From an uncultured Eubacteriales bacterium (GTDB lineage: Bacteria; Bacillota; Clostridia; Peptostreptococcales; Anaerovoracaceae): 64,000 nucleotides of DNA. Positions 45,103 to 63,325 of the stretch are shown here, piece by piece. Numbering within the stretch: position 1 is the stretch's first letter; the number at the start of each line of letters is the position of its first letter. The stretch covers positions 1-64,000 of the forward strand of contig OMZI01000008.1 in NCBI GenBank assembly GCA_900315485.1, read 5' to 3'. The position numbers and the translations under genes are program-made. Below the pieces are notes generated by a model, which saw only the letters and a program-made list of their open reading frames with translations, did no database searches and had not been told where the DNA came from.

Positions 45103-45735
45103 ATGAACATACTTACTGAGCTGTTTATCTTATTCTTTAAACTCGGAGCCTTCACCATCGGAGGCGGCGTTGCTATGCTTCCATTGCTGCAGAACACCCT
45201 GATACATGAGAAGAAGTGGTTCAGTGAGGAAGAGTTCGTGGATATAGTTGCGGTGTGCCAGAGTCTGCCGGGTGTCATTGCGATCAACATGGCTACATAC
45301 GTCGGATATAAGAAAAAAGGTTTCCTCGGTTCGCTAATATCGACAATCGGGGTTGTACTGCCATCGTTCGTAATGATCCTGCTGATTGCTACATTCATCT
45401 CCAACCTCGGGGATAACAGGATCGTAATGGGCGCGATGGCGGGGCTCAGAGCAGCAGCTCTCGGACTCGTGGTGGTGGCGGTCATCCAGCTGTCCTCGGC
45501 TGTGTTCAAAGGAAAGTGGACGATAATTGCTGCGGTGCTGAGCTTCGTGCTCATAGCGGTATTCAGGATAAATACGGCATATGTAATTCTGCTGTTCGTA
45601 ATACTTGGAATCGCGAGTGCGCTTGCCGGCAGCAGGCTGAAGAAGAATACTGCCGGAGAAGCGGAGGCTGCAGAGGCAGGGATGACAGATGGAAGGAAGC
45701 CTTCTGAAGACGGAACGGAAGGAGGCGGCAGATGA
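45103..45735 (+). CDS. chrA: Chromate transporter-family protein, first subunit
   Basis: A 210-residue membrane protein with about five to six helices. The N-terminal FILFFKLGAFTIGGGVAMLP and the following VAVCQSLPGVIAINMATYVG are hallmarks of the CHR domain, which in the short-chain form works as a pair with its neighbour. Known members export chromate or transport sulfate-like anions; in many anaerobes the substrate is unproven. The C-terminal 30 residues are an acidic tail (AEAAEAGMTDGRKPSEDGTE). Its stop overlaps the second subunit's start (ATGA). RBS weak. Confidence 0.88.
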   Translation: MNILTELFILFFKLGAFTIGGGVAMLPLLQNTLIHEKKWFSEEEFVDIVAVCQSLPGVIAINMATYVGYKKKGFLGSLISTIGVVLPSFVMILLIATFISNLGDNRIVMGAMAGLRAAALGLVVVAVIQLSSAVFKGKWTIIAAVLSFVLIAVFRINTAYVILLFVILGIASALAGSRLKKNTAGEAEAAEAGMTDGRKPSEDGTEGGGR

Positions 45736-46340
45736 TATTCTGGGAACTCTTTATAAGTTTTGTCAAAGTAGGACTGCTCGGATTCGGCGGAGGACTGGCT
45801 ATAGTAAGACTTATCTATGACAGCATCCAGCCTTTTGTCGACATGACACCTGAGATGTTTGCCAACATAGTGGCGATATCCCAGATCACACCGGGGCCGC
45901 TTGCCGTCAACACGGCTACTTATGTCGGATATGAGACGGCCGGTATCGGAGGGGCGGCGTCGGCTACGTTCGGCGTAGTCCTGCCTGCATTCATACTTGT
46001 CAGCATAGTTGCCAGGATGATACAGCAGTTCAAGGACAGCAGGATAGTCCAGGGTGCACTTACCGGAATAAGGCCGGCGACCATGGGACTCATCGGAGCG
46101 GCAATAGTAACGCTGATCGTTCCGTCCATAGCCGGCGACACAAGACTGGGCACCGGGCTGCTGCGCAGCCTCGGAGCGGACATGTCGGGAGGCATAGGCG
46201 GCCTCATAACGGGATGCCCGGTGGATATAATAGCAATACTCATTGTGGCGGCAACGGTCATCCTCATGACTAAATATAAGAAAAGCCCGTTCATAGTGCT
46301 GATTATAATGGGATGCATCGGGGCGGTACTTGGTGTATAA
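45732..46340 (+). CDS. chrA: Chromate transporter-family protein, second subunit
   Basis: A 202-residue membrane protein, homologous to the first subunit: LFISFVKVGLLGFGGGLAIV and AISQITPGPLAVNTATYVGY correspond to the same two signature segments. Short CHR proteins of this kind insert in opposite orientations and act as heterodimers. The start overlaps the stop of the first subunit by four bases, so the two are made in equal amount. The stop codon TAA is the beginning of the first hairpin repeat unit. Confidence 0.88.
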   Translation: MIFWELFISFVKVGLLGFGGGLAIVRLIYDSIQPFVDMTPEMFANIVAISQITPGPLAVNTATYVGYETAGIGGAASATFGVVLPAFILVSIVARMIQQFKDSRIVQGALTGIRPATMGLIGAAIVTLIVPSIAGDTRLGTGLLRSLGADMSGGIGGLITGCPVDIIAILIVAATVILMTKYKKSPFIVLIIMGCIGAVLGV

Positions 46341-46507
46341 TGTTCTCTACGAATATACGGCGTTGCCGTAAGGTAGAGAACATTGATCTCCGGAGGCAGG
46401 GCTCCTCCGATAGAATCATTCCTACGAATGTACGGCGTTGCCGTAAGGTAGAGATGATTGATCTCCGGAGGCGGGGCTCCTCCGATAGAATCATTCCTAC
46501 GAATATA
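46339..46507 (+). repeat. Tandem 75-bp hairpin repeats (two full units and one partial)
   Basis: Units begin at 46339, 46414 and 46489 (period exactly 75). Each has a left arm, the inner hairpin ACGGC-GTT-GCCGT, a right arm, then TTGATCTCCGGAGGC and GCTCCTCCGATAG with a CGGAGG/CCTCCG hairpin. Unit 1 arms are AATGTTCTCTAC and its exact 12-base complement; unit 2 arms are AATCATTCCTAC and GTAGAGATGATT. The arms differ between units but stay complementary, the mark of selected structure. The first arm starts in the TAA stop of the chromate transporter gene. A third start (AATCATTCCTACGAATATA) is truncated before cysS. Confidence 0.9.
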
Positions 46508-46550
46508 TTTCTATGAAGAAAAATGAAAAATCACAGGAGGTTTACTACAC

Positions 46551-47951
46551 ATGTATATCTATAATACTCTGACCAACCGCAAGGAAAAATTCGTGCCTAT
46601 TGAAGAGGGAAAGGTCAAGATGTATGTCTGTGGACCTACTGTCTATAACTTCTTTCATATAGGAAACGCAAGACCTTTCGTCGTATTCGATACGCTGAGA
46701 AGGTATTTCAAATACAGAGGGTATGAGGTCAAGTTCGTTCAGAACTTTACTGATGTTGACGACAAGATCATCAACAGAGCCAAGGAGGAGGGCATCACTG
46801 CTCCTGAGGTATCCGAGAAGTATATCAAGGAGTATTTTGAAGATGCCGGTTCTCTCAACGTCATCAAGGCAGACGTTCATCCTAAGGTTTCCGAGCACAT
46901 TCCTGAGATCATCGACTTTGTACAGACGCTGATCGACAAGGGTTATGCTTATGAAGCTGACGGCGATGTCTACTATTCGACAAGAAAGTTCGAAGAATAC
47001 GGCAAGCTGTCCGGACAGAACATCGATGACCTCGAGAGCGGCGCAAGGATCGCTGTCGGCGAAGTCAAGAAGGATCCTCTGGACTTTGCTCTGTGGAAGG
47101 CCCGCAAGGAAGAGTCGGAGATCGCATGGGAGTCCCCATGGGGCATGGGAAGACCGGGCTGGCACATCGAGTGCTCGACCATGGCCAAGAAGCACCTCGG
47201 TGACACGATAGACATCCACGGCGGCGGACAGGACCTTACATTCCCGCACCATGAGAACGAGATCGCGCAGTCAGAAGCGTGCAACGGAGTTCCTTTTGCA
47301 CACTACTGGATGCACAACGGATACATCACAGTTGATAATGTCAAAATGTCCAAGTCTCTCGGAAATTTCTTCACCGTAAGAGATATCCGCAAGGAGTACA
47401 CAGGAGACTTCATCAGGTTCTTCCTGCTGTCAGGACATTACCGCAGCCCGATCAACTTCAGCGACAGCCTGATGCATGCATCCAAGCAGGGATATGACAG
47501 GATAGCTACTGCTATCGAGACCCTCGAGTTCCTTAAGAAGAACGGAACTGATGAGAAGATGCAGGGCGAGGATGAGCTGATTGCTTCGTTCGATAAGTTC
47601 AGGGACAGATTTATCGAAGTAATGGATGATGACCTCAATACTGCAGATGCCATTTCCGTAATATTCGAGATGGTATCCGAGATCAATGTTGCTGTCAAAG
47701 ACGGCGCATCGAAGTCATATGCTGAGGAGGCTCTGAAGAGGATAGATGAACTTACTGAGGTGCTCGGAGTATTCAGAGATACTGATGACGAAGCAGGTAT
47801 AGGCGATGACATCCAGGCTCTGATCGACGAGAGACAGGCTGCCCGCAAGGAGAAGAACTGGGCAAGAGCTGACGAGATCAGAGACCAGCTCGCCGCAATG
47901 GGCATCACTCTCAAGGACACACCGCAGGGTGTACAGGTAATCAGAAACTAG
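46551..47951 (+). CDS. cysS: Cysteine--tRNA ligase
   Basis: A 466-residue class Ia synthetase. Zinc-binding Cys27 in [20 protein letters not shown] with the HIGN (HIGH-like) signature; the other zinc ligands in [10 protein letters not shown] and [22 protein letters not shown] (KMSKS loop); helical DALR-type anticodon domain to the end ([20 protein letters not shown]). RBS AGGAGG, 13 bases before the ATG, close to the repeat array. No T-box leader: the upstream gap is filled by the hairpin repeats instead. Confidence 0.97.
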
Positions 47952-51863: not shown

Positions 51864-52514
51864 ATGGCAGATATGGTTAACATGGAAGACATGACAATCG
51901 CAGCAGAAACTGCCGCTGCTGAAGAGGCTGAAGAGAAGGCTGCCAGAGAAGTAAGAACTTCGGTATCGCCGCTCGAAGGAGAAGGCCTCAGAGGTGACGG
52001 AACTGCCAAGTGGTATGTTGTCCACACATATTCAGGCTATGAGAACAAGGTCAAGACCAGCATCGAGAGAATGGTCGAGTACCGCGGAATGCAGGACCTT
52101 ATTCTTGAGGTCGTTATCCCGACCGAAGAGAGGATCGAGATCAAGGACGGCGTCAAGAAGGTCAAGACCCGCAAGCTCTATCCGGGATATGTCGTGATCA
52201 AGATGATCGTTAATAATGAGACCTGGTACCTCGTACGTAACACAGAGGGCGTTACAGGTTTCGTAGGACACGGATCAGACCCGATTCCGCTGACCAAGGA
52301 AGAGATCGTAAGAATGGGCATCGAGAAGCTCAAGATCGATCTGGACATCGAAGTCGGCGATACAGTACGTATCATCGGCGGAGTTTTCGAAGGCCAGCTG
52401 GGTATTGTCGAAGCTATCAACCCTGAGAAGCAGATAGTCAAGACAAGAATATCCATGTTCGGAAGAGACACACCTGCAGAGATCGAGTTCTCACAGGTAA
52501 GCAAACTCAAATAA
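51864..52514 (+). CDS. nusG: Transcription termination/antitermination protein NusG
   Basis: A 216-residue factor. Residues 1-48 are an acidic N-terminal extension (TAAAEEAEEKAAREV) not found in short NusG. The NGN domain (AKWYVVHTYSGYENKVKTSI; PGYVVIKMIVNNETWYLVRN) binds RNA polymerase at the clamp, and a KOW domain at about 165-216 (GDTVRIIGGVFEGQLGIVEA) contacts Rho or ribosomal protein S10. RBS AAGGAG. Followed by rplK. Confidence 0.96.
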   Translation: MADMVNMEDMTIAAETAAAEEAEEKAAREVRTSVSPLEGEGLRGDGTAKWYVVHTYSGYENKVKTSIERMVEYRGMQDLILEVVIPTEERIEIKDGVKKVKTRKLYPGYVVIKMIVNNETWYLVRNTEGVTGFVGHGSDPIPLTKEEIVRMGIEKLKIDLDIEVGDTVRIIGGVFEGQLGIVEAINPEKQIVKTRISMFGRDTPAEIEFSQVSKLK

Positions 52515-62829: not shown

Positions 62830-63246
62830 ATGCCTACAATTAACCAGTTAGTACGTCAGGGCAGACAGAGCACTGTCAAGAAGTCTACAGCACCTGCACT
62901 TGGTAAGAACATGAACACACTTCGCAAGACTCTTACCGACGTTAATTCCCCTCAGAAGAGAGGAGTATGCGTAGCAGTTAAGACTGTAACTCCTAAGAAG
63001 CCGAACTCAGCTCTGAGAAAGGTTGCAAGAGTACGTCTTACCAACGGAATGGAAGTTACTGCTTACATCCCTGGTATCGGACACAATCTGCAGGAGCACT
63101 CTGTTGTTCTTGTAAGAGGCGGAAGAGTTAAGGACCTCCCTGGTGTTAGATATCACATCATCAGAGGAACACTTGATGCATCCGGCGTTGCAAACCGTGG
63201 ACAGGGCCGTTCAAAGTACGGTGCAAAGAGACCTAAGAAAAAGTAA
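62830..63246 (+). CDS. rpsL: 30S ribosomal protein S12
   Basis: A 138-residue protein of the decoding centre. [40 protein letters not shown] (Lys in [10 protein letters not shown] is the streptomycin-sensitive form), and [20 protein letters not shown] (second streptomycin loop, also wild-type). RBS GAAAGGAG. Its TAA stop is the first part of a hairpin repeat copy. Confidence 0.98.
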
Positions 63247-63325
63247 GCATTTCATTGATCATACGCCGTTGGCGTAAGGAAGAAATGCTTGATCTACGGA
63301 GGCAAGCTCCTCCGATAGAATCATG
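63245..63325 (+). repeat. Single copy of the post-stop hairpin repeat
   Basis: The left arm AAGCATTTC starts in the TAA stop of rpsL; the inner hairpin is TACGCC-GTT-GGCGTA; the right arm GAAATGCTT (63282-63290) is complementary. It continues with GATCTACGGAGGC and GCTCCTCCGATAGAATCAT, the same hairpin and end as in the 46.3 kb array. The arm bases differ from both 46.3 kb units but are again self-complementary. The rest of the 229-base gap before rpsG (63326-63460) has no clear gene. Confidence 0.88.

Follow-up and report, generated by a model that had tools for sequence, protein, structure and literature searches.

The window analysed here, a stretch of 64,000 nucleotides, carries short hairpin repeats at two places on its forward strand. 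Near 46 kb, the second of two chromate-transporter genes (45,732–46,340, + strand; Pfam Chromate_transp) ends in a TAA stop codon (46,338–46,340) that overlaps a TATAAT sequence (46,336–46,341, + strand), a candidate −10 box upstream of cysS. The repeats begin inside this overlap, with an insertion point that can be written as TAT^AAT or T^AA, and the same T belongs to the stop codon and to the TATAAT. From position 46,339, two 75-bp units lie head to tail on the + strand (unit 1, 46,339–46,413; unit 2, 46,414–46,488). Directly 3′ of unit 2, on the same strand, is a 23-bp remnant, the left half of a further unit (46,489–46,511), which is also present behind a single unit in three sister records (L209, L076, L439). 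The second place is the rpsL/rpsG intergenic region, where unit 3 (63,245–63,318, 74 bp, + strand) has the T of the rpsL TAA stop (63,244–63,246, + strand) as its left edge and the AA as its first bases. An additional copy follows an EF-G gene just beyond the window (C36:66,070). The preliminary description had recognised two full units and a partial one; the two 75-bp units at 46 kb stand, whereas the copy at 63.2 kb is complete and the partial one is that at 46,489. It had also noted two cases in which the left arm starts inside a TAA stop, which is what we find at the two stop codons just given, for units 1 and 3 of the three. In M. kristiansenii and M. timidum, the TATAAT upstream of cysS is likewise embedded in the final chromate-transporter codons and no element is present there; GGTGTATAAT also occurs in both without the element (L214, L215).

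A unit is about 75 bp long and consists of two hairpins, H1, with variable arms around a fixed inner hairpin (ACGGCGTTGCCGT), and then H2. H1 runs from AA and the left arm through a loop and the inner hairpin to the right arm and TT, its left arm opening with AA that follows a T; the commonest type of unit ends in GATAR. In unit 1, H1 spans 46,339–46,384 (arms AATGTTCTCTAC / GTAGAGAACATT) and H2 spans 46,385–46,413. The corresponding parts of unit 2 are 46,414–46,459 (arms AATCATTCCTAC / GTAGAGATGATT) and 46,460–46,488, and those of unit 3 are 63,245–63,290 (arms AAGCATTTC / GAAATGCTT) and 63,291–63,318. The inner hairpin at 63 kb reads ACGCCGTTGGCGT, and H2 in the window units is GATCTnCGGAGGC..GCTCCTCCGATAR. 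The complementary arm pairs reported earlier can be read directly from the sequence: TGTT/AACA in unit 1, TCAT/ATGA in unit 2 and GCAT/ATGC at 63.2 kb. These four-base pairs bear out the proposed compensatory change of the outer stem, though not throughout, as only seven of the nine outer H1 pairs of unit 2 are Watson–Crick, with one G.T and one A.C. RNA folding gave z-scores of −5.0 for unit 1, −4.2 for unit 3 and −1.9 for unit 2, for which 12 of 200 shuffles folded equally well. Rfam returned no match to positions 46,000–47,000 up to an E-value of 5.

Searches with the core of the unit, in this genome and its relatives, uncovered a wider family of copies. In the window genome, the H2-stem pattern gave seven forward matches and one reverse match, against none for a reversed control, and the H1 model finds nothing at the reverse match. 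With one mismatch allowed, the inner core by itself discriminates less well, giving 15 forward and 2 reverse matches where the control gave 2 and 5. The H1 model detects 12 strong copies and one weaker copy in a degenerate array, and some copies in this genome carry a different H2 (CTAATTCGCTCGACAAGCTCGCGAATTAA). The closest cysS relatives of the window genome include rumen MAGs and Mogibacterium, a genus assigned to Anaerovoracaceae by NCBI, from which we infer that it probably belongs near Mogibacterium. The element is present in 31 of 36 genomes of the same genus and in none of 24 genomes of other families. An order-wide draw of 297 genomes, not split by family, added 14 further genera of the window's family: its 35 positive genomes all belong to that family and represent 15 genera. 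Units in the other genera are often 78 bp long and mostly start with TGnTATAATG, which many unit ends recreate at the next junction, in arrays of up to nine. Neither the exact core pattern nor the H2 pattern matched any IMG/VR viral contig.

The 165 copies analysed within the genus are the better-scoring of its matches; 144 are first copies, of which 142 are distinct. Most were found with a paired-stem model and only the best were kept, an ascertainment toward paired copies, and one multi-copy group of genome G008 is over-represented among them. At the G008 loci L134–L140, L467–L469 and L471, there are seven near-identical copies with common flanks within a larger long-hairpin repeat (CACCGG...CGGTGTC), and copies that begin only at the right arm. 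They may mark where a different and larger element ends, or where the assembly broke. At four other loci (L079, L080, L129, L174), a third H2 type (about GCGAAATACTCGACAAGCTCGCATTTCGAC) precedes a common block like GAGCCTGAAACCCAGTAAAGAGAGGAGG, possibly another repeat or a leader. An identical unit with identical flanks occurs in three genomes (L100 in G020, L182 in G026 and L374 in G215, the last of another genus), which could reflect recent transfer or bin contamination.

Arm covariation was assessed by pair counts set against shuffles and slid controls. In an alignment of 11 copies, covariation was 0.399 against 0.144 in shuffles, with none of 500 as high, while the count of pair types was ordinary (53/500 shuffles). 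Before the larger alignment was built, 42 of the 144 first copies were removed because they had a different H2 type, were of odd length or were duplicates, and 97 of the remaining 102 were used; those omitted were L137, L139, L191, the minus-strand copy of L193, and L195 (one unpaired outer cell). Across H1 and H2 of these 97 copies, covariation was 0.316; shuffles gave 0.133, again with none of 500 as high, and slid controls no more than 0.126. Double-change cells numbered 266 (91 in shuffles; 0/500 as high) and fell at 17 of the 25 pairs (12.2 in shuffles), and further pair types were not above shuffles in the same copies (70/500). By score and by double-change cells, though not by pair-type count, the hairpins are therefore a structure-constrained family.

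The complementarity of the outer arms is nearly complete. Over the nine outer H1 pairs, 817 of 819 cells are Watson–Crick and the other two are G.T (91 rows with 25 arm sequences; six of the 97 rows have a left-arm gap and were dropped, five for gap placement and one being L058, which belongs to a degenerate array and pairs poorly). When all 104 distinct first-copy stems are counted, L058 included, 928 of 936 outer cells are Watson–Crick, with four G.T, three A.C and one other. Over all 25 pairs, G.T (67) outnumbers A.C (22); 51 of the G.T cells fall at pair 13–37 and at two H2 pairs. This excess would suit parts that act as RNA or on the + strand, and speaks against a purely DNA-level reading. 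Because paired stems should not be preselected, an exact-H2 search was also run on 47 genomes. It found matches in 26 of them, against none for the reversed control; 85 places were listed and 78 distinct occurrences examined, exact H2 favouring undecayed units. Of the 69 first copies recovered in this way, 56 pair at all nine positions (21 arms), one pairs at eight, and 12 are unpaired in the spacing tested. By eye, the left arm is missing in eight of the 12, and two contain runs of N; of the others, L475 has a matching arm and an enlarged loop, and L471 has an arm and no inner hairpin.

The covariation first seen in three units thus extends to the first copies of the family, but inner array copies and decayed copies break the pairing, the outcome that the preliminary description had named as a refutation. 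Among 18 distinct inner-copy stems compared without gaps, 125 of 162 outer cells are Watson–Crick, and these copies are often one base short in the left arm. In arrays of genus g31, a single unit may combine the left arm of one neighbour with the right arm of another, as expected under unequal recombination. In unit 2 of the window, the left arm is identical to the downstream remnant and the right arm to that of G063, a sister genome with a single unit at this place; such a mixture of arms fits an origin by unequal recombination.

The preliminary description had left a choice between selection on the stem and copying of one arm against the other. Copying is favoured by the near absence of G.T and A.C intermediates in the outer arms, although selection alone could also be responsible. 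In sister records whose upstream 300 bases are 91–95% identical, the same site holds AATCATCTC/GAGATGATT or AATGTTCTC/GAGAACATT, an arm change of two pairs at one site. Together, the near lack of intermediates and this two-pair change speak for templating. There is a real chance that such arm copying is a feature new in kind.

The left edge of the element follows a T, mostly as T^AA; a T stands there in 129 of the 144 first copies listed, in matches to a model that itself favours T. Sixty of these 144 copies lie on an in-frame stop codon, required to end a frame open for at least 60 codons, compared with 12 and 11 in the control frames. Thirty-three lie on TATAAT, 17 of them with the TG of an extended −10 box, and eight lie on both stop and box. 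The remaining 59 lie on neither, which counts against the mobile-element reading developed below. In the other genera, 35 of 42 first copies are on TATAAT, 33 of the 35 with the extended −10 TG. The stop codon or box is rebuilt by the element's own AA(T). The right flank opens with AA at 34 of 47 stop sites, 25 of 29 promoter sites and 10 of 48 other sites, a pattern that looks as if the target were T^AA. The left AA is found at the other sites too, and is therefore mostly the unit's own. A targeting arm, suggested earlier as a property of the element, is not the rule: the left arm and right flank are alike at 20 of 125 sites (score ≥11; about 1.2 expected), mostly, by eye, where pieces of a second unit follow.

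The proteins encoded at stop sites form 34 clusters. Twenty were run through Pfam and 19 had a match, mostly to translation or central metabolism: EF-G (two), EF-Tu, IF-1, S2, S12, GroEL, SecY, MetK, two aminoacyl-tRNA synthetases, PFK and acetate kinase, among others. Genes of these types are, in general, strongly expressed. In several decayed copies (L460, L463 and L464, with the left arm or all of H1 lost, and L430, with all of H1 gone), the upstream gene still seems to be stopped; by eye, the replacement stops are TAA, TAG or TGA formed from other bases. Downstream of the promoter copies, an open frame is present in 61 of 73 groups, with most starts 50–150 bases past the last H1. No clear −35 box accompanies these copies, whose best matches to one average 2.8 of 6 bases compared with 2.5 for the other copies; this, too, counts against the mobile-element reading. 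A regulon was considered and set aside, as the downstream proteins look unrelated by eye.

The position of the promoter copies bears directly on what the pairing is for. Transcription starts about seven bases downstream of a −10 box. Where a copy sits on a promoter, its outer arm takes in the last bases of TATAAT and a few beyond, and would be largely untranscribed from that promoter. In 23 distinct stems from TATAAT sites, all 207 outer cells are Watson–Crick. Pairing in these copies is likely to act at the level of DNA. Covariation is normally taken as proof of RNA function, and here it is extreme where the arm is probably untranscribed from that promoter.

These observations weigh against a purely 3′-end RNA family, one of the two readings offered by the preliminary description. 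Under that reading, post-stop hairpins would be mRNA structures under selection that stabilise or insulate the messages of strongly expressed genes, and the RNA stem would be what matters. Stop-site genes such as those for EF-G, EF-Tu, S12 and GroEL agree with it, as do the excess of G.T over A.C in H2 and pair 13–37 and the strong predicted folds of units 1 and 3. The TATAAT sites of the genus and, above all, of the other genera, with their fully paired outer arms, do not, and neither do two interrupted tRNA genes and the many orthologous rpsL sites without a unit. We regard selection on 3′-end RNA as a rather unlikely account of the family.

Comparison with relatives shows that empty orthologous sites exist. 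Of 30 loci corresponding to one promoter site (L151), four are occupied, with one unit in G033 and G006, two in G026 and three in G012. The nearest empty sites (G004, G024, G014, G017) each have an uninterrupted TATAAT stretch and undisturbed flanks. The rpsL site is occupied, empty or decayed depending on the species; many orthologues are without the element and decayed remnants of H1 exist there. In genome G017 (82% complete, 5% contamination), units on the antisense strand interrupt two genes of one tRNA cluster within the anticodon (L149; 1002–1077, 76 bp, and 2553–2627, 75 bp). Joining the flanks yields tRNA-Val(tac) and tRNA-Met(cat), neither of which is detected with the inserts present. 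The targets are CTTGT^AAGG and CTTAT^GAGG. No target duplication is present at the tRNA-Met(cat) site; elsewhere one to three bases of duplication are possible, since at T^AA a duplicated A, AA or AAT is indistinguishable from the unit's own start. Reading the inserts as tRNA introns seemed unneeded. Another tRNA-Val of different sequence opens at the end of another G017 contig, which ends two bases past the anticodon arm and shows this tRNA only partially. Units also lie in or beside tRNA-Thr-like sequence (L082, L083, L085, L126, L143, L162, L172, L173), several of them at the D-loop, where by eye the right junction has gained a base or had one altered; this, too, counts against the mobile-element reading.

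It might be argued that the repeat does not move at all, being an old sequence that has stayed where it is, has changed through tandem duplication and through template switching during replication, and has been lost in some species. The arrays with mixed arms and truncated units would be expected from such a history. Copies sharing a site also resemble one another more than they resemble other copies, some sites apparently being inherited, and the two-pair arm change in the sister records took place at one site. Template switching is indeed a published route to multibase compensatory changes (PMC8794818). Evolution in place does not account for empty sites with undisturbed flanks or for interrupted tRNA-Val and tRNA-Met genes. 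A further site speaks against it: at the GluRS/GlnRS stop of the window genome, a unit with a different H2 lies, by eye, ahead of a remnant that looks like the unit present in G001, a sister genome, as if one stop had been hit twice. We consider the absence of mobility unlikely.

We therefore return to the small mobile element that was the other reading offered at the outset, and that the empty sites and interrupted tRNA genes support. In our judgement, the repeats are somewhat more probably than otherwise a family of non-coding, non-autonomous mobile DNA elements of Anaerovoracaceae, about 75–78 bp long, that move as a folded single strand. The structure would act as single-stranded DNA, and the folded element would enter transiently open DNA of transcribed loci, mobilised by an enzyme encoded elsewhere. 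Template switching, at movement or at replication, might re-copy one arm from the other and so keep the two complementary; hairpins with unpaired arms might be unable to move; or both might apply. Arrays would then grow by unequal recombination, which can leave a unit with arms of different origin. More tentatively, the right arm may be rewritten against the left at each move by hairpin-primed copying, leaving the arm sequence free to vary and yet fully paired each time, and the element may enter open T^AA sites of transcribed DNA, cutting and restoring a stop codon or −10 box in one step; we hold this doubtful, though possible. Neither a mobilising enzyme nor an excised form was seen in the genomes analysed. 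If the element is mobile, it would be parasitic, with ends that put stop codons and promoters back in place, and insertions at the ends of core genes (rpsL, fusA, tuf, groEL) would be tolerated for that reason. It would also provide a natural test of DNA-level causes of covariation, such as template switching and single-strand mobility, against selection on RNA.

A candidate for the enzyme is a Y1 transposase (RAYT or TnpA), which would make the repeat a REP/BIME or an IS200/IS605-derived element. Hairpins, the lack of inverted termini and apparently little or no target duplication suit such an origin, and Y1_Tnp was found in 21 of 40 genomes of the genus. Stem loops of IS605 in Borrelia, near lipoprotein genes, show compensatory changes near stop codons (PMC2775950). 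In the window genome (G000:C19), a truncated left half of the element (arm and inner core; L322, about 52,117–52,149) is followed, after about 150 bases, by an IS200-type Y1 gene. However, this was the only part of a unit at the 20 Y1/RAYT gene places scanned with the H1 model (22 sources), and none of these places has a RAYT flanked by inverted units. The single-contig genome G238 (98% complete) has at least 11 copies of the element and no Y1_Tnp match, whereas the element-free G081 has 11 Y1_Tnp. The GT(A/G)G head is absent as well, the left edge being mostly TAAG or TAAT in the 97-row alignment. To judge from G238, a Y1 transposase seems not to be required, though the enzyme could also have been lost or have diverged. 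Movement by a Y1 transposase appears very improbable to us. A RAYT-like Y1 protein of about 253 aa is encoded at G000:C35:67,516 (L323), with no adjoining units.

The element shares traits with several known systems. MITEs of the RUP, Correia and ERIC type are short, non-coding, intergenic and folded, and lie partly at promoters, as does the element. It differs from them in having no terminal inverted repeat across the unit, which runs from AA to GATAR through two separate hairpins, and in showing no target duplication at the single judgeable site (tRNA-Met). Putative mobile promoters are repeats that bring along or re-form a −10 box in front of genes that are not related to one another. The element does so too; however, at the site with empty relatives the box pre-exists and is restored by the insertion, and the copies at stop codons are as a rule without such a box.

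With REP/BIME sequences, which are small intergenic palindromes in clusters, often near gene ends and with complementary stem changes (PMC2817692), the element has all of these traits in common. Unlike them, it has two dissimilar hairpins per unit and direct rather than alternating tandem copies, and it sits exactly on stop codons and −10 boxes. IS200/IS605 derivatives (PATEs) and free IS605 stem loops resemble it in having hairpins and no inverted termini, and differ in that H1 and H2 are dissimilar, the target is little more than T^AA and G238 has no Y1 gene. The IS605 stem loops of Borrelia are the closest published parallel in the literature examined. Template-switching hairpins likewise change several bases in a compensatory way without intermediates, and their published description concerns RNA genes and not a mobile repeat family (PMC8794818). 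Among the matches listed from an open-access library were related classes, such as REP/RAYT, and papers that look unrelated, with no description of such an element, which by that library alone appears to be undescribed. It works like a parasite of the REP/MITE type, while failing the defining features of both, the RAYT flank and head of the one and the inverted ends of the other.
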